Below are positions 3,585 through 15,566 of a stretch of 64,000 nucleotides of DNA, one piece after another. The stretch is from Clostridium sp. AT4. Its GTDB lineage: Bacteria; Bacillota; Clostridia; Lachnospirales; Lachnospiraceae. The stretch is from assembly GCF_001517625.2 (NCBI RefSeq), contig NZ_LN999828.1, positions 2,044,661 to 2,108,660 on the forward strand, given 5' to 3'. Each line of letters starts with the position of its first letter. The first letter of the stretch is position 1. Under the pieces are notes generated by a model. That model had not been told where the DNA came from, did no database searches, and saw only the letters and a list, made by a program, of their open reading frames with translations. Both the position numbers and the translations under genes were made by a program.

Positions 3585-4440
3585 ATGAATGTGAACAATG
3601 GAAACTCCCTGCTCCCGGAGGATCGGATCAAAGAATTTAAAAGCATGCTTTCAGAAAATGGAGCGTCGGAAAATACGGTAAGGGTATATGCGGCGTCTGT
3701 GCGGGAATTTTATAAAAATCATCAGGAGCTGACCGTAGACGAATTACAGGACTATAAAAGAGAGCTTTTGAAAAAATACCGGCCTGCAACAGTAAATACA
3801 CGGATCTATGGGATCAACCAATATGTGAAGTACCAAAAAAAACAGTGGAATTCCGGAAGATTTCCGGCTTCCTCCTGTGCGGTGCCAGCAGAAACCATTT
3901 CTCAACAATATAATCTCAAAACGGGATTATGAAAAACTGAAAAAGGGACTTTTGAAGGATCAGGATCTATTCTGGTACTTTGTAGTGCGGTTCCTGGGCG
4001 CTACAGGAGCCAGAGTAAGCGAATTGGTTCAGATCAAGGCAGAACACATTGCCGTAGGCTGTATGGATCTGTACACGAAAGGGGGAAAAATGCGCCGTAT
4101 TTATTTTCCCAGACAGCTTTGCAGGGAAATGGCTGTGTGGCTAAAACAGAGAGAACTGTCATCCGGATATATATTTACCAGCCGCTGCGGAAAGCCCATT
4201 ACTCCCAGAGGGATCGGCTTACAGCTTAAAGTGCTTGCAAAACGATACCGGATCCGGCCTGAAACGGTATATCCCCATTCCTTCCGCCATCGGTATGCAA
4301 AGAATTTTCTTGAAAAATTCAATGATATTTCCCTGCTGGCAGACCTTATGGGACATGACAGCATCGAAACCACGCGCATCTATCTGACCCGTTCCTCACA
4401 GGAACAGCAAAAGGTGATTGACCGGGTAGTAACCTGGTAA
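3585..4440 (+). pseudogene. Tyrosine recombinase 4 (type B), split by a frameshift at an A8 tract
   Basis: The first frame (ATG 3585, stop 3932) encodes the core-binding domain. The second frame (about 3832 to the TAA at 4440) encodes a complete catalytic domain with TGARVSEL, YPHSFRHRYAKNF and LMGHDSIETTRIYL. Alignment by eye to recombinase 2 puts the switch at or just after the run of eight A at 3835-3842: beyond it the +1 frame reads SGIPEDFRLPPV, matching ALPEKNFRLGVI of recombinase 2. Seven A would restore one protein of about 285 residues. A GTG at 3877 could start the catalytic half alone. It may be a pseudogene, a phase-variable or slippage-expressed gene, or a sequencing error. Confidence 0.8.
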
Positions 4441-10483: not shown

Positions 10484-11176
10484 TCAGTCAATCATCAGTT
10501 CATCGGCTGTAACAAAGGTATATCCTTCTCTCTGGAGGATATCGATCAGCTCCAGAGCCGCTGACACAGATGTATCAAATATATCATGCATCAATATAAT
10601 ATCCCCATCCTCAGCTTCTTTCAAGACCTTCTTTACGATACGCTTCTGGTTTCTGAGCTTCCAGTCCAGGGAATCCACAGACCAGAGGACTGTCGTCATG
10701 CCGGACTGACACTCCAGCTCCTCGTTCCAGTCTCCGTAGGGCGGACGCATATATTGAGGTCGGGAGCCCGTAATGTCCTCGATCATCCCGCTGGTGCGGT
10801 CTACCGCCTCACAGACAGCCGCAGGACCCGCTTTTGTAAGGCGCACATGATTATAGCTGTGATTTCCGATCAGGTGGCCTTCTTCCTGCATCCGTTTTAC
10901 CAGAGCCTCGTTTCCCGGTATACAGCTTCCCATGAGAAAAAAGGTAGCAGGTACTCCCCGTTCCTTTAAACCATCTAAAAGAACCGGCGTATGGACGGGA
11001 TGGGGGCCGTCATCAAAAGTAAGAGCGAGATATTTTTCCGGCTCAAACGTACCCTCAGGTGCTGATGCCTCCCTGACCGTAACCGGAGCAGCCAAAAGGC
11101 AGATCAGATATGCCAGAAGGATAAAATCGGCGGACAAAACAGCCGACAACAGATGGACCCTGTGTTTCCACTTCAC
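10484..11176 (-). CDS. Polysaccharide deacetylase (NodB/CE4 family), membrane-anchored
   Basis: A 230-residue CE4 carbohydrate esterase. Residues about 8-32 form a signal anchor (LLSAVLSADFILLAYLICLL), placing the catalytic domain outside the membrane. NodB motifs are present: LTFDDGPHP (catalytic base Asp and metal Asp), HSYNH (metal His pair), RPPYGDWN, LWSVDSLDW and IILMHD. Such enzymes remove N-acetyl groups from peptidoglycan or other polymers. GGAGG lies just upstream of the ATG. It precedes rarA in a two-gene unit. The substrate cannot be told from sequence. Confidence 0.9.
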   Translation of the reverse strand: MKWKHRVHLLSAVLSADFILLAYLICLLAAPVTVREASAPEGTFEPEKYLALTFDDGPHPVHTPVLLDGLKERGVPATFFLMGSCIPGNEALVKRMQEEGHLIGNHSYNHVRLTKAGPAAVCEAVDRTSGMIEDITGSRPQYMRPPYGDWNEELECQSGMTTVLWSVDSLDWKLRNQKRIVKKVLKEAEDGDIILMHDIFDTSVSAALELIDILQREGYTFVTADELMID

Positions 11177-11274
11177 ATTCAGGCCTCCGGGCAGATTGGT
11201 AGATTGATTTATTTATATGAGGGAGAATGTAGAAATAGACGGATCGCTTCAAATAATTTGAGGCCCTGTTTTTT
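11177..11274. other. Intergenic region with a weak hairpin facing the module
   Basis: This stretch holds no gene. An AT-rich palindrome (CTTCAAATAATTTGAGG at about 11248-11264) followed by CCCTGTTTTTT reads as a weak terminator pointing right towards the HipA-like module. The same layout of hairpin then CTGTTTTT occurs in mirror image at the right edge (13503-13532). Confidence 0.35.
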
Positions 11275-11330
11275 CATAAAAATGAAGCTGCTGCTCCAGT
11301 AGATTATTTATCTGCTTTTGCAACAGCCCC
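11275..11330. repeat. Left copy of a 56-60 bp inverted repeat bounding the HipA-like module
   Basis: The reverse complement of this 56-base block matches 13439-13498 with two substitutions and one 4-base insertion (CTGC) in the other copy. Its inner end reads ACAGCCCC and its outer end CATAAAAATG. The GGGGCTGTTGCAAAAG-like end resembles insertion-sequence termini, but no transposase or complete element is present. Confidence 0.85.
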
Positions 11331-11430
11331 GTTCCATATAACACCAGACAGCTGACACTGCCGGGACAAGATTAACGTTTGCTGAACTGAGAACGCTTGG
11401 CTTCTCATTACTCCTCAGAACACCTCGAAA

Positions 11431-11766
11431 CTACATGTGTTCAATATAAAATTCATCCTGACAACTTCTCCCTTCATTTTTTAATAGTAATTTATGCTCG
11501 TCATAGGAACGCATTCCATTCACCCGAAGTATTTCTCCTATATTCTGTCTGCTACTTGGAATAATTCTACTCTGTACCCAACGCATACTCCAGTCTGAAT
11601 TCATGGTCCGGATACCTTTTTTTAAAAATAGCGACATCATAAACGGAGTTTCCTTAGGAGTAACATTTTCTGGAATATCTATTGTGTATTTCTTTGTTCT
11701 TTCATCATAATTTAATATTCCGACGATTTTATTTCTATTATTTCTCTTGATTGCGTACCTGTTCAA
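11431..11766 (-). CDS. Small protein of unknown function beside the HipA-like kinase
   Basis: A 111-residue hydrophilic protein that I cannot assign to a family. It overlaps the 3' end of the kinase gene by 29 bases and uses a TTG start (11766) placed 6 bases after AAGGTGG, so translation is probably coupled to the kinase. Basic and aromatic patches such as MRWVQSRIIPSSRQNIGEIL and the acidic end CQDEFYIEHM are seen; there is no signal peptide, membrane segment or obvious HTH. By position it could be an N-terminal-lobe partner or antitoxin of a split HipA system, like the small partners in multi-part HipA systems; this is inference only. Confidence 0.65.
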   Translation of the reverse strand: MNRYAIKRNNRNKIVGILNYDERTKKYTIDIPENVTPKETPFMMSLFLKKGIRTMNSDWSMRWVQSRIIPSSRQNIGEILRVNGMRSYDEHKLLLKNEGRSCQDEFYIEHM

Positions 11767-12565
11767 AAAAACACCACCTTTTCCAAATCATTTCCCAGAT
11801 TTTATTCCTATGAACCTCTGATAAAACATGATCTATACCATTGAAAATATAATCCTGATCTTCTATTTTCAGTTTCCAAATCTGTAAATCGTATTCTTTT
11901 GGTATCAATAACAGATTATACTCTAGAGATTTTGAGCCGATATAATTATTAACTGGAAAATCTCTCATCACGTCTATTTCTTTCAGAAGTTTTTCATCAC
12001 CATATGTTGAAAACAATAACGATACTCCCTGATCAAACAAAGGTGCCATTCTCACACTGTCTTCTTCATCATTTCTTAACACTTCCAGATTGCTTCCGTG
12101 CCGATCTCTATTAGCAATCAAATAATCAATACAGAACATCTGGTACATATATAATCCCCAACCGTTTCTTATTGCAAACTCTAACGGAGATTCATTACCT
12201 TCTTTTTGCAAATCATAATACAAATCATACGCCAGCTTTTCTTCATTGTCCTTACGAAAATTTTCTGAAACAGAAACCCATGTTTCTTGTTCTTTACCAT
12301 CAATAACAATCCTTGCATGTATCAGTTTATACTTTACATGCGGAATTCTCAAAACATCCATCACCCGGCTTACAATCAATTCATTGACACACTCATGACC
12401 AAATACCCCACGATAACTATCATAATTCGATAATTTATAATATAATCTTTTCCCATTCACTTCTTCATACGCCTTCAAAAAGCACCCTGGAGTTCCCGGT
12501 GACATTTTTTTTGCCGCCCAGTCCAGATGTTTCATATCCTGTAATTCACAAATAATATCCTGCAC
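11738..12565 (-). CDS. HipA-like / CtkA-like protein kinase
   Basis: A 275-residue protein with the HipA C-terminal kinase fold (PI3/4-kinase-like). The ATP-binding lysine is probably K44 in LYYKLSNYDS, the catalytic loop is YLIANRDRHGSN (D154, N159) and the metal-binding aspartate is D178 in APLFDQGVSLL. It lacks the HipA N-terminal domain, and no HipB-type HTH antitoxin is nearby, which fits short CtkA-like kinases. HipA kinases of toxin-antitoxin systems phosphorylate targets such as glutamyl-tRNA synthetase; the target here is unknown. The start is GTG at 12565 behind TGAGGTGA. The gene is visibly AT-rich compared with its flanks, suggesting transfer. Confidence 0.8.
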   Translation of the reverse strand: MQDIICELQDMKHLDWAAKKMSPGTPGCFLKAYEEVNGKRLYYKLSNYDSYRGVFGHECVNELIVSRVMDVLRIPHVKYKLIHARIVIDGKEQETWVSVSENFRKDNEEKLAYDLYYDLQKEGNESPLEFAIRNGWGLYMYQMFCIDYLIANRDRHGSNLEVLRNDEEDSVRMAPLFDQGVSLLFSTYGDEKLLKEIDVMRDFPVNNYIGSKSLEYNLLLIPKEYDLQIWKLKIEDQDYIFNGIDHVLSEVHRNKIWEMIWKRWCFFEQVRNQEK

Positions 12566-12588
12566 TATGTCACCTCATCTCAAAGATT

Positions 12589-13326
12589 TTATTGTTCATC
12601 TGGCTCAAATTGATCTGGATAACTGTCACTTCCCCCATATCCGCACACCCTCATCCTAGGAGAATTACAAACAGGCAGCAAAAATTCCGGTTTATAATAT
12701 TCTCCCTCTTCATCACTTTCCGCCTTTAAACACTCATCACACCAAAAAGGCTCTCCTTCATAATATCCTTCTGGATTAACCCATTTCGCCTCGTTTTGTT
12801 CGCAGTTACTGCAAAGAATTTTAGGAGGATTATTTCTTGATAAAATTACAATTTCATTATTCTTTTTTTCTCCATCGCGACAGCTATGTATACTTAATAC
12901 CAATTCTGTGGTTGAACCAAAATCATATTCATATAAAAAGTTATCGCCGACATCCACAACGTCTTTTAATCGATAATTCATATTTCTGGAAGGTTTTCCC
13001 CAAAAAGGATCCGTATCCGGATTGCTTTCATATTGTTCTCCATGAATCGTGAATGCGCTCAGATGTCCGCAGCATTCTACCCATATGTCACGGATAAACA
13101 CATCCAGTTCTTTTAGCGTAGTATTCTCGCTTGCTTCTACGATTAACCAATAATCTTTTTGATATTTTCCAGTAATAACAACCTGAAAATATTGACATAT
13201 TCTTTTTCTTTTTTCTTCAGCAAGCTTTGCGCTTCTCTTTTTGCACGCCTGCAAATGGCGCAGCATACCGCTTTTTGTATACTCTTTTCCACAATACTTA
13301 CAAAATCCTTTTGTTTGAACCGCCAT
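12589..13326 (-). CDS. pRiA4b ORF-3-like protein with N-terminal zinc finger
   Basis: A 245-residue protein. Residues about 8-30 form a C2H2-like finger (CKYCGKEYTKSGMLRHLQAC). A PRiA4_ORF3-type domain (about 42-150) follows, with VVITGKYQKDYWLIVEASEN, NTTLKELDVFIRDIW and HLSAFTIHGEQY, a fold reported in mobile-element and plasmid proteins (also annotated 'IS1096 passenger TnpR-like'). A further Cys-x-x-Cys pair set (CSNCEQN...WCDECL) suggests a second zinc site near 170-200. It is first in the minus-strand module, 23 bases ahead of the HipA-like kinase. Its molecular function is not established; a DNA-binding or regulatory role is a guess. Confidence 0.8.
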   Translation of the reverse strand: MAVQTKGFCKYCGKEYTKSGMLRHLQACKKRSAKLAEEKRKRICQYFQVVITGKYQKDYWLIVEASENTTLKELDVFIRDIWVECCGHLSAFTIHGEQYESNPDTDPFWGKPSRNMNYRLKDVVDVGDNFLYEYDFGSTTELVLSIHSCRDGEKKNNEIVILSRNNPPKILCSNCEQNEAKWVNPEGYYEGEPFWCDECLKAESDEEGEYYKPEFLLPVCNSPRMRVCGYGGSDSYPDQFEPDEQ

Positions 13327-13401
13327 TCTTTTATCTCCAATCCATCTGCTTTTTCGTGTATATTAGCATCTAATGCACATCTACCGTTTTTCCTATAAGA
13401 A

Positions 13402-13410
13402 AGTATAACA
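13402..13410 (-). promoter_or_regulatory. Possible extended -10 promoter of the HipA-like module
   Basis: TGTTATACT on the minus strand (13410-13402) has the TGnTATAnT form of an extended -10 element, about 75 bases before the first ATG of the module and inside the right repeat boundary. No clear -35 box is seen. Confidence 0.4.
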
Positions 13411-13438
13411 TTATCTTATTAAAAAATACATAGAAAAA

Positions 13439-13498
13439 GGGGCTGTCTGCTGCAAAAGCAGATAAATAATCTACTGGAGTAGCAGCTCCATTTTTATG
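13439..13498. repeat. Right copy of the inverted repeat bounding the HipA-like module
   Basis: This 60-base block begins GGGGCTGTCTGCTGCAAAAG and ends CATTTTTATG. It is the inverted partner of 11275-11330 (54 of 56 aligned bases identical, plus a 4-base CTGC insertion). Together the copies enclose three genes and about 2.1 kb. No target-site duplication is evident at the outer edges. Confidence 0.85.
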
Positions 13499-13502
13499 TC
13501 CT

Positions 13503-13532
13503 AAAAACAGAAAACGGACTCCGAAGAGTCCG
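13503..13532 (-). terminator. Terminator of the GH25 lysozyme gene
   Basis: On the minus strand a perfect 7-bp stem, CGGACTC/GAGTCCG with a TTCG tetraloop (13532-13515), is followed by TTTTCTGTTTTT. It lies 50 bases after the lysozyme stop and just outside the right inverted repeat. Confidence 0.85.
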
Positions 13533-13584
13533 CAATCCATAGTATAATAAGATCGGTCGAGTAAATTTTTTGCATATGCCCCTT

Positions 13585-15447
13585 CTACACTCCCGGCTTC
13601 TCCCCCGCCGCTACCTGCCCCTGGGAGGGAGCAGAGCTGACACCGGGGCCGCCGTTGATTCCTGTAACAGGAGCTGAGGGCTCTGGAACGTTTTGGGAGG
13701 AAGAGCTGTTTCCGCTTCCGTTTGACGGGATAATAATGGGGTTAGAGGATGTGCCGGAGCTGCCGGAAGCCGTTCCTGCACTGTCGGACGCGCTCTCCTG
13801 GTTTGTGGAACCGCTTTCCTCCTGCCCCTGAGGAATCAGATGGCCGTCTGCTGCTGCCTCATAAACAGCGCCGCCGATCTCCAGCGTCTGTCCTGCAGCC
13901 ATGCGTCCTGTGGAGGGATCCATATAATAATGGAGACCGTTTACCTCGATCATGCCCGTGGTCATCGCTCCGCTTCCGTCAAAATAATACCAGGCTCCAT
14001 CCATCTCACGCCAGCCGGTCGCCATCACGCCGGAGCCCTTCAGATAATACCGCTTTCCGCCTTCACTCAGCCAGCCGGTCTGCATCACGCCGTTTGTATC
14101 TGAGCAATACCAGGAGCCATTATCCTGGATCCAGCCCTTTGCCAGGGCACCTGATGCGTCCAGATAGTACCATTTGCCGTTTTGGTTTGTCCATCCAACC
14201 GCCATTTTTCCGGAAGACTCCATATAATACCGCTTTCCGTCTGCATCCAGCCAGCCGGTCTGCATGATACCGTTGGAGTCTGTATAATACCAGGCTCCAT
14301 TGTCCTCTATCCAGCCTTTTTTAACAGCTCCTGAGCTTCCCAGATAGTACCATTTTCCCTGATCCTGACGCCAGCCAGTCTGCATCTTTCCCGTGGTCTC
14401 GTCCAGATAATAACGGCTGCCGGATACCGTGATCCAGCCCGTGGACGCAAGGCCTTCGCTGTCCATATAATACCAGTCTGAACTATCCTGAGCCCAGGCG
14501 TTTTTCTGTTTGGCATAGTTGCTGTAATAATACCGTTTCCCGTTAATGGTACGCCAGGTATTGGCCGGAATCTGGCCGGAGAAATCCTTAAATTGGAAAT
14601 CAATATCCACATTTCCATTGATTCCCTTTACAGAACCGGTGCTGGTCGCCTGCCACATAACAGGGTTCTGGTAGCTGGGACGGGCAGAATAACGGGCTAC
14701 CCATACGGGATAATCCATCAGGCTCATATCCAGCTTATTTTTCAGCCAGTTTTCATTTGCATAGACAATCGGATAATATCCGGAATCGGATATCTTTTTG
14801 CAGAACGCATTTGCGATCGCTGCCAGCTCCTCTTTTGAAAGGTTTCCCTGAGTAGAATCCTCCATATCGAAAGCTACAGGATAAGAAACAGGATAATCAT
14901 GGATCAGATCCAGCACAAAATCGGCCTCTGCCTCTGCCATTTCCACCGTTACCGCCAATGAGTAAATATACACGCCCACCTTCACGCCGGCGGCGCTGGC
15001 CTGCTGGATATTCCGGTGAAAATAGGGATCTACCACTCCCTTGGAACGGGTTCCCAGCATCACGAAGGACACGTCATCTGCTGCGACCTGGCTCCAGTTG
15101 ATCTCCCCCTGCCATCTGGATACGTCAATTCCTCTGGCAAGCACATTTTGAATGGCACTTCCGTCCGGCATCTGATAGACGCCGTTTACCTTTTTCCATG
15201 CATTTGGATTGGTCTGGTCTGCTCCTTTTGCATTCTCAGAAGTGCTGGAGGCAGAAGGCACATTGCCGGTTCCTCCAGATCCTCCTGTTTCTCCCGGGCC
15301 TCCTGCAGCAGACGCTCCAACAGACGCCGGCATTTCTCCCGGCCCTGCAGCGTAGGCCGTATACGCAGACCCAAGGGTTCCTGCGCCCAGAATTCCAGCC
15401 AGGACAAGTGCCTGGCAGCGCTTTCTCATCTCCTGTCTCTTTTTCAT
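13585..15447 (-). CDS. Secreted GH25 lysozyme with cell-wall-binding repeats
   Basis: A 620-residue exported muramidase. A signal peptide (residues 1-34, ending AYTAYAA) is followed by a Gly/Ser/Pro linker and a GH25 domain (about 106-300) beginning GIDVSRWQGEINW and carrying the acidic catalytic motif FDMEDS near 193-198. About ten cell-wall-binding repeats (about 310-540) of the type GWRQDQGKWYYLGSSGAVKKGW come next, then a low-complexity Ser/Gly/Pro tail ending in a TGINGGPGVS-like motif. It should cut the glycan strands of peptidoglycan while tethered by the repeats. The ATG at 15447 is preferred over upstream codons because TAAGGAGAGG precedes it. Confidence 0.93.
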   Translation of the reverse strand: MKKRQEMRKRCQALVLAGILGAGTLGSAYTAYAAGPGEMPASVGASAAGGPGETGGSGGTGNVPSASSTSENAKGADQTNPNAWKKVNGVYQMPDGSAIQNVLARGIDVSRWQGEINWSQVAADDVSFVMLGTRSKGVVDPYFHRNIQQASAAGVKVGVYIYSLAVTVEMAEAEADFVLDLIHDYPVSYPVAFDMEDSTQGNLSKEELAAIANAFCKKISDSGYYPIVYANENWLKNKLDMSLMDYPVWVARYSARPSYQNPVMWQATSTGSVKGINGNVDIDFQFKDFSGQIPANTWRTINGKRYYYSNYAKQKNAWAQDSSDWYYMDSEGLASTGWITVSGSRYYLDETTGKMQTGWRQDQGKWYYLGSSGAVKKGWIEDNGAWYYTDSNGIMQTGWLDADGKRYYMESSGKMAVGWTNQNGKWYYLDASGALAKGWIQDNGSWYCSDTNGVMQTGWLSEGGKRYYLKGSGVMATGWREMDGAWYYFDGSGAMTTGMIEVNGLHYYMDPSTGRMAAGQTLEIGGAVYEAAADGHLIPQGQEESGSTNQESASDSAGTASGSSGTSSNPIIIPSNGSGNSSSSQNVPEPSAPVTGINGGPGVSSAPSQGQVAAGEKPGV

Positions 15448-15566
15448 TTTCCTCTCCTTATATCGTACTGATAGCAAAAACGGAGGATGCTGTCAGCCAG
15501 TCCCGCCGCAGCATCCCCCTTTATCAACTTGTCCTTGTCACATGTTTCCATATCGGATTTCTCTTA

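Follow-up and report, generated by a model that had tools for sequence, protein, structure and literature searches.

Insertion sequences (IS) of the IS1182 family, IS1272 and its kin, are the closest described relatives of the repeats treated in this study. According to PMC5678879, IS1272 replaces stem-loops without target duplication, and according to PMC4923244 it carries the gene sh-fabI as TnSha1 into terminators. The Tn3-derived TIME-COMP structures are of another kind, with passenger DNA between two short elements that lack a transposase, as described in PMC4133298 and PMC13367494.

The window analysed here, meaning the whole stretch of 64,000 nucleotides from Clostridium sp. AT4, carries a pair of inverted repeats around three genes. 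It agrees with the IS1182 family in the transposase family of an intact relative, in a GGGGCTGTTGCAAAA-type terminus and in stem-loops near the ends; target duplication was undetected, and one compatible stem-loop replacement was seen in the congener G002. It differs in having two end fragments only, without transposase. An IS1182-family element together with a passenger at terminators is also the arrangement of TnSha1 and TnSha2, the staphylococcal IS1272-borne sh-fabI transposons, but in TnSha1 (PMC4923244) a complete IS is combined with a second end that lies upstream of the passenger, whereas in the window there are two stubs, inverted to each other and with their intact tips turned towards the cargo. 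The layout of TIME-COMP is shared too, but the transposon family is another one, activity of the pair in the window would be hypothetical, and one of its ends is truncated. We know of no mini-element composite in the IS1182 family, and a literature search over titles and the first part of abstracts gave none.

The features of the locus, in coordinates of the window, are as follows.

10484-11176, minus strand: polysaccharide deacetylase, native neighbour on the left side of the site, followed by the presumed rarA gene (Pfam scan; synteny)
11246-11264, plus strand: left outer hairpin, outside the IS alignment (scan; weak alignment to the terminator region of G001, a congener)
11266-11330, minus strand: left repeat, IS1182-family 5' end, IS bases 1-68 (alignment to the intact IS in G324)
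11431-11766, minus strand: partner protein of 111 aa, overlapping the end of the kinase gene (weak PDC-M03B match; beside the kinase in relatives)
11738-12565, minus strand: HipA/CtkA-like kinase, 275 aa (PADLOC PDC-M03A; HipA_C below cut-off; CtkA by profile)
12589-13326, minus strand: PRiA4_ORF3-like protein, 245 aa, optional third gene (PF07929, 2.3e-9)
13439-13582, plus strand: right repeat, apparently an IS1182-family element with an internal deletion, made up of IS bases 1-125 (13439-13567) and a tip resembling a terminus (alignment to the G324 IS)
13514-13533, minus strand: IS-borne stem-loop that resembles a terminator and has a T-run, about 50 bp past the stop of the lysozyme gene (scan; same stem-loop in intact IS copies)
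13585-15477, minus strand: GH25 lysozyme with choline-binding repeats, native neighbour of the site (Pfam scan; synteny)

Identity of the inverted repeats

The stretches 11275-11326 and 13447-13498 are inverted copies with 94% identity over 52 nt without gaps. The gapped alignment gave 59 of 61 aligned bases with two substitutions and a CTGC insertion, just as an earlier note on this DNA had described, and a second 4-bp gap just past 56 bp. A search of the strain's own genome returned the second copy at E = 3.3e-17, so the likeness is not due to chance. The GGGGCTGT tips of both repeats point inward at the cargo, the left one (GGGG) at 11330. The bracketed insert of three genes is AT-rich, as was claimed: 500-base windows had a GC content of 32-38% inside and 47-58% outside.

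Judged by alignment, the repeats are the transposase-proximal (5') ends of an IS1182-family insertion sequence and no special boundary of a cassette, which bears out the earlier note in its comparison with inward-facing insertion-sequence ends. The intact related IS has a length of 1.86 kb, and its transposase matched NF033551 with 388.5 bits (curated cut-off 270) and, in Pfam, DDE_Tnp_1_6 and DUF772. Against the intact IS in G324 the alignment of the right repeat covers 129 bp, crossing the stem-loop and entering the transposase gene at its start, and that of the left repeat covers 65 bp, ending at IS base 68; the left repeat also matched IS copies in G002. Matches to the repeat occurred in 6 of 17 genomes of the genus, the own genome among the six, and the right copy was matched in 52 of 397 genomes of the family at E <= 1e-4 (two candidates were scored per genome, and copy numbers are lower bounds). 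The congener G002 had 12 matching places, ten of them near-full IS copies, and two IS copies there were 99.9% alike over 1.86 kb. Shortened derivatives were also present in congeners, with 312 bp (L170), 273 bp (L171, the span of two matches) and 117 bp (L011, whose ends were placed by eye). L025 (OY725878.1), a record of 248 kb that was deposited under the description of a Subdoligranulum plasmid, contains a full-length related IS; its transposase reading frame encodes a protein 82% identical.

Palindromic flanks as an insertion signature were considered and dropped, because the flanks of 13 IS copies had a mean palindrome score of 5.0 for own pairs against 4.9 for cross pairs. Direct flank scores (4.6 against 4.6) indicated no target duplication at the 13 copies.

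The two repeats of the window are unequal at their outer ends. The right outer tip, GGGGCATATGCAAAA read inward from 13582, stands 2 bp from the lysozyme stop and agrees with the 5' terminus of the IS at 12 of 15 positions (p ~0.006 per 50-nt stretch, picked post hoc), against p ~0.15 for the 3' terminus. The inner tip of the same repeat bears a 4-bp insertion. On the left repeat the tip scan detected no outer tip (p 0.96-0.98). A candidate for a decayed outer tip near 11219 was rejected, since this stretch aligns with congener DNA upstream of the deacetylase. Given the tip-like outer end on one side only, we read the right copy as an internally deleted mini-element (144 bp) and the left copy as a truncated stub (65 bp). 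The 5'-end sequence of the IS exists in two copies only in the own genome (3.41 Mb searched), both at this locus and 2.17 kb apart. Among 30 distinct copies compared they are each other's nearest or tied-nearest, the next-best copies reaching 60/63 to the left repeat and 61/65 to the right (59/61 for the pair itself).

Insertion site and outer hairpins

The deacetylase ortholog and the presumed rarA gene stand together in 11 congener loci, and in six of these the deacetylase is immediately preceded by a choline-binding gene that aligns with the lysozyme; the stretches compared for the other five gave no lysozyme match. Repeats and cargo were found in none of the 10 informative loci, so the site is empty in all ten (the eleventh, L117, has only 85 bases before the deacetylase and was left out as uninformative). 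The search for empty sites between deacetylase and lysozyme, which had been proposed as a check, succeeded in this way, and on this comparison the module is an acquired insert that the congeners lack at the corresponding place.

Homology on the deacetylase side reaches 11236 in G004 and G005, and 11264 with gaps in G001 (in each alignment, at most one shuffle out of 300 reached the score), so the insert occupies the space that begins 2 bp past the stop of the lysozyme gene and extends to the terminator region. The outer edge of the left repeat is within about 2-30 bp of native DNA, and this piece therefore sits at the junction of cargo and native DNA.

The mirrored outer hairpins that had been reported do exist, at 11246-11264 (plus) and 13533-13514 (minus), each followed by CTGTTTT, but they are probably not of one origin, because the right one is IS-borne and the left one lies beyond the left IS alignment. 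The left hairpin may be a remnant of the native terminator, for which its weak alignment is suggestive only, and the IS-borne stem-loop may serve as the terminator of the lysozyme gene. When the congener gaps were folded, a strong hairpin was found in 8 of 8 (-18.5 to -34.6 kcal/mol), the best one of G001 being without a T-run. The lysozyme-gene stop and the best hairpin are roughly 26-146 bp apart in congeners, against 2 bp from stop to insert in the own genome, which means that the loss went beyond a hairpin.

An IS copy of G002 (L188, G002:C1:3627400-3629260) stands in place of 21 bp that are present in G003, and these 21 bp, in a comparison without chance control, are one arm and the interior of a predicted G003 hairpin. 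Two G002 IS sites were tried for an empty-site ortholog, and L188 alone had one; the second copy (L189) had no match in the other 16 genomes. The reading frame that the L188 copy breaks in G002 looks, by eye, like that of an oxidoreductase.

Genes of the cargo

All three cargo genes are on the minus strand. The PADLOC candidate PDC-M03 also has a kinase gene and a partner gene, and both of its models were matched, though with partial coverage: the kinase matched PDC-M03A at 1.7e-11 over residues 136-193 only (58 residues), and the 111-aa protein matched PDC-M03B at 8.7e-05 with under half of the model covered. A literature search on the name PDC-M03 found no paper. The kinase shares a HipA_C-type catalytic region with HipA/CtkA kinases, and CtkA was its sole solved relative at E <= 0.1 in a profile search (7.9e-5); it differs from them in that the HipA_C match (20.3 bits) is below the Pfam cut-off of 30.5, the small partner gene lies downstream, and no HipB was recognised among the cargo proteins. 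The predicted structure of the kinase (mean pLDDT 82.4, pTM 0.86, from 18 sequences) supports a foldable domain and nothing further.

The 111-aa protein had no Pfam match. A profile search of its family against solved structures returned recA constructs, with no stretch passing alone, a reverse transcriptase at 0.019 and still weaker matches, none of which we judged meaningful. Near its N-terminus the PRiA4_ORF3-like protein carries a C-x2-C motif that resembles a zinc finger, with weak BED/C2H2 matches below cut-off.

The cargo was compared with 57 relatives, of which the family search supplied 29 and GTDB contigs 28; this family search matched the kinase in 143 of 397 genomes, and the best 30 became loci, one being the own genome. 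At least 600 bases on both sides were available in 51 of the 57 loci, and L057 and L058, 99% identical, are the one near-identical pair. A match to the 111-aa protein lay beside the kinase in 56 relatives (partial in L077 and L082), the exception being L075, where the locus ends inside the kinase. PRiA4_ORF3 accompanied the kinase in only 2 of 57. The kinase and the 111-aa protein are kept together down to about 41% identity (L027-L083), including loci titled Coriobacteriia and Eggerthellales. The cargo is probably a kinase-plus-partner pair of stress or phage defence, and we infer a defence or toxin-antitoxin-like role for it.

The repeats were found in none of the 57 relatives, which speaks against a moving or invertible cassette. 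A genome search for the repeat, as suggested earlier, did yield intact elements with the same ends, in G002 and G324, but no cargo relative with the repeats. The earlier note had held that its reading would fail if the repeats were widespread elements unrelated to the cargo and if no strain lacked the module; we found the repeats in genus and family as IS ends unrelated to the cargo, whereas congeners without the module at this site do exist.

In another genome the same three-gene module is flanked by direct repeats of 117 bp with 81% identity (L057:1499-1615 and 3932-4048), and the tail there is partly common to window positions 11392-11430 and to L119. The cargo tail at 11336-11434 was considered as the true boundary and rejected, as no more than 4 of the 397 family genomes and 2 of the 98 relatives had it, the own genome being counted in both.

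Transposase remnants in the genome

The Pfam scan identified no transposase among the three cargo proteins, in agreement with the earlier description of the module. Searched with the G002 transposase, the own genome gave no match at E <= 0.001. The IS1182 family model gave two fragments there, covering 64 and 45 positions and both interrupted by a stop, and gave 388 bits for G002 as positive control. A DNA search with the whole IS found relics only; 3'-end matches outside the window were located on contig C7 at 2124343-2124666, 813339-813388 and 153901-153940. G001 had no match in either the whole-IS DNA search or the family-model search. The own genome is rated 97% complete, and a transposase copy could lie in a gap.

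Origin of the locus

The repeats are 5' ends of an IS, the site is empty in congeners, the cargo differs from its surroundings in composition, and the cargo occurs elsewhere without the repeats. The history that we favour, with belief and doubt about evenly balanced, is an IS1182 insertion of composite-like build at the lysozyme terminator that has since decayed, not a working mobile or flipping cassette. Two opposite-facing IS1182-family elements and the kinase module would have arrived as one unit (IS - cargo - IS) and would have entered the lysozyme terminator, a stem-loop target of the type replaced by IS1272-like relatives; both transposase genes would later have been deleted, leaving the mini-element on the right and the stub on the left, and the unit would now be fixed in place. 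The reports of stem-loop replacement and of a passenger for IS1272, together with the L188 case, favour such an insertion at a terminator. One event is supported by the mutual likeness of the sole two 5' ends and by their closeness, for which random placement gives a chance of 2 x 2170 / 3,412,755, or ~0.0013 by arithmetic; the three 3'-end relics elsewhere show that IS copies once stood apart from the cargo, and weaken this figure. The two IS copies around the cargo, as expected of a composite, are present as inverted 5'-end fragments and not as whole copies, and with their tips facing inward the cargo lies outside both half-elements. Against a composite, the tip scan detected no outer end on the left; this result, the further native DNA that was lost and the IS relics elsewhere also count against one event. 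The flanks without palindromic signature at the 13 IS copies and the best G001 hairpin without a T-run likewise speak against the favoured history. No second genome with the same unit was found among the 57 kinase relatives.

The main rival is a serious one, which we regard as possible though on balance doubtful: two IS1182-family elements or mini-derivatives would have inserted independently, one in the lysozyme terminator and one in the kinase-operon terminator, with the cargo having come earlier by another route. The right copy is 2 bp after the lysozyme stop and the left copy about 100 bp after the last stop of the kinase operon, both at gene 3' ends; shortened derivatives exist in congeners (L170, L171 and L011), and the right copy resembles a two-tipped mini-element. 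If the family favours stem-loops, the bracketing of an operon between two terminators needs no composite. However, the chance adjacency of the only two 5'-end copies is improbable (~0.001, arithmetic), they are mutually nearest or tied-nearest, and the left piece sits where cargo meets native DNA. It is unlikely that two transposase-less IS1182 derivatives mobilised the kinase-type defence candidate in trans and placed it into a terminator by stem-loop replacement. We consider quite improbable a composite of mini-elements that is mobile at present, like the TIME-COMPs of Tn3 kin, with an IS1182 transposase acting in trans. The tip-like sequence on the right outer edge agrees with it, and composites of Tn3-derived mini-elements are described in PMC13367494, but the own genome yielded no match to the G002 transposase, only the two stop-bearing fragments and DNA relics, the left outer tip is missing, and the right inner tip is interrupted. 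Least credible of all is an invertible switch, in which recombination between the 56-bp inverted repeats would flip the kinase operon and alter its expression: inverted repeats of such length are present, yet the scan of the three cargo proteins and the two flanking ones found no recombinase (the deacetylase matched Resolvase at E 0.17, chance level), and the repeats are already accounted for as IS ends. The mobile or invertible cassette of the earlier note is thus unsupported, given the inward-facing tips that put the cargo outside both half-elements, the 4-bp insertion in the right inner tip, the undetected left outer tip and the fragmentary transposase, and nothing that we saw supports present mobility or inversion.

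Under the decayed composite-like insertion as well as under two insertions, a puzzling pair of repeats would receive an ordinary history, in which the ends of an IS family that reportedly seeks terminators stayed behind on both sides of an acquired module. The conserved kinase-plus-partner pair, with both genes in 56 of 57 relatives, is in turn linked to a candidate defence system.
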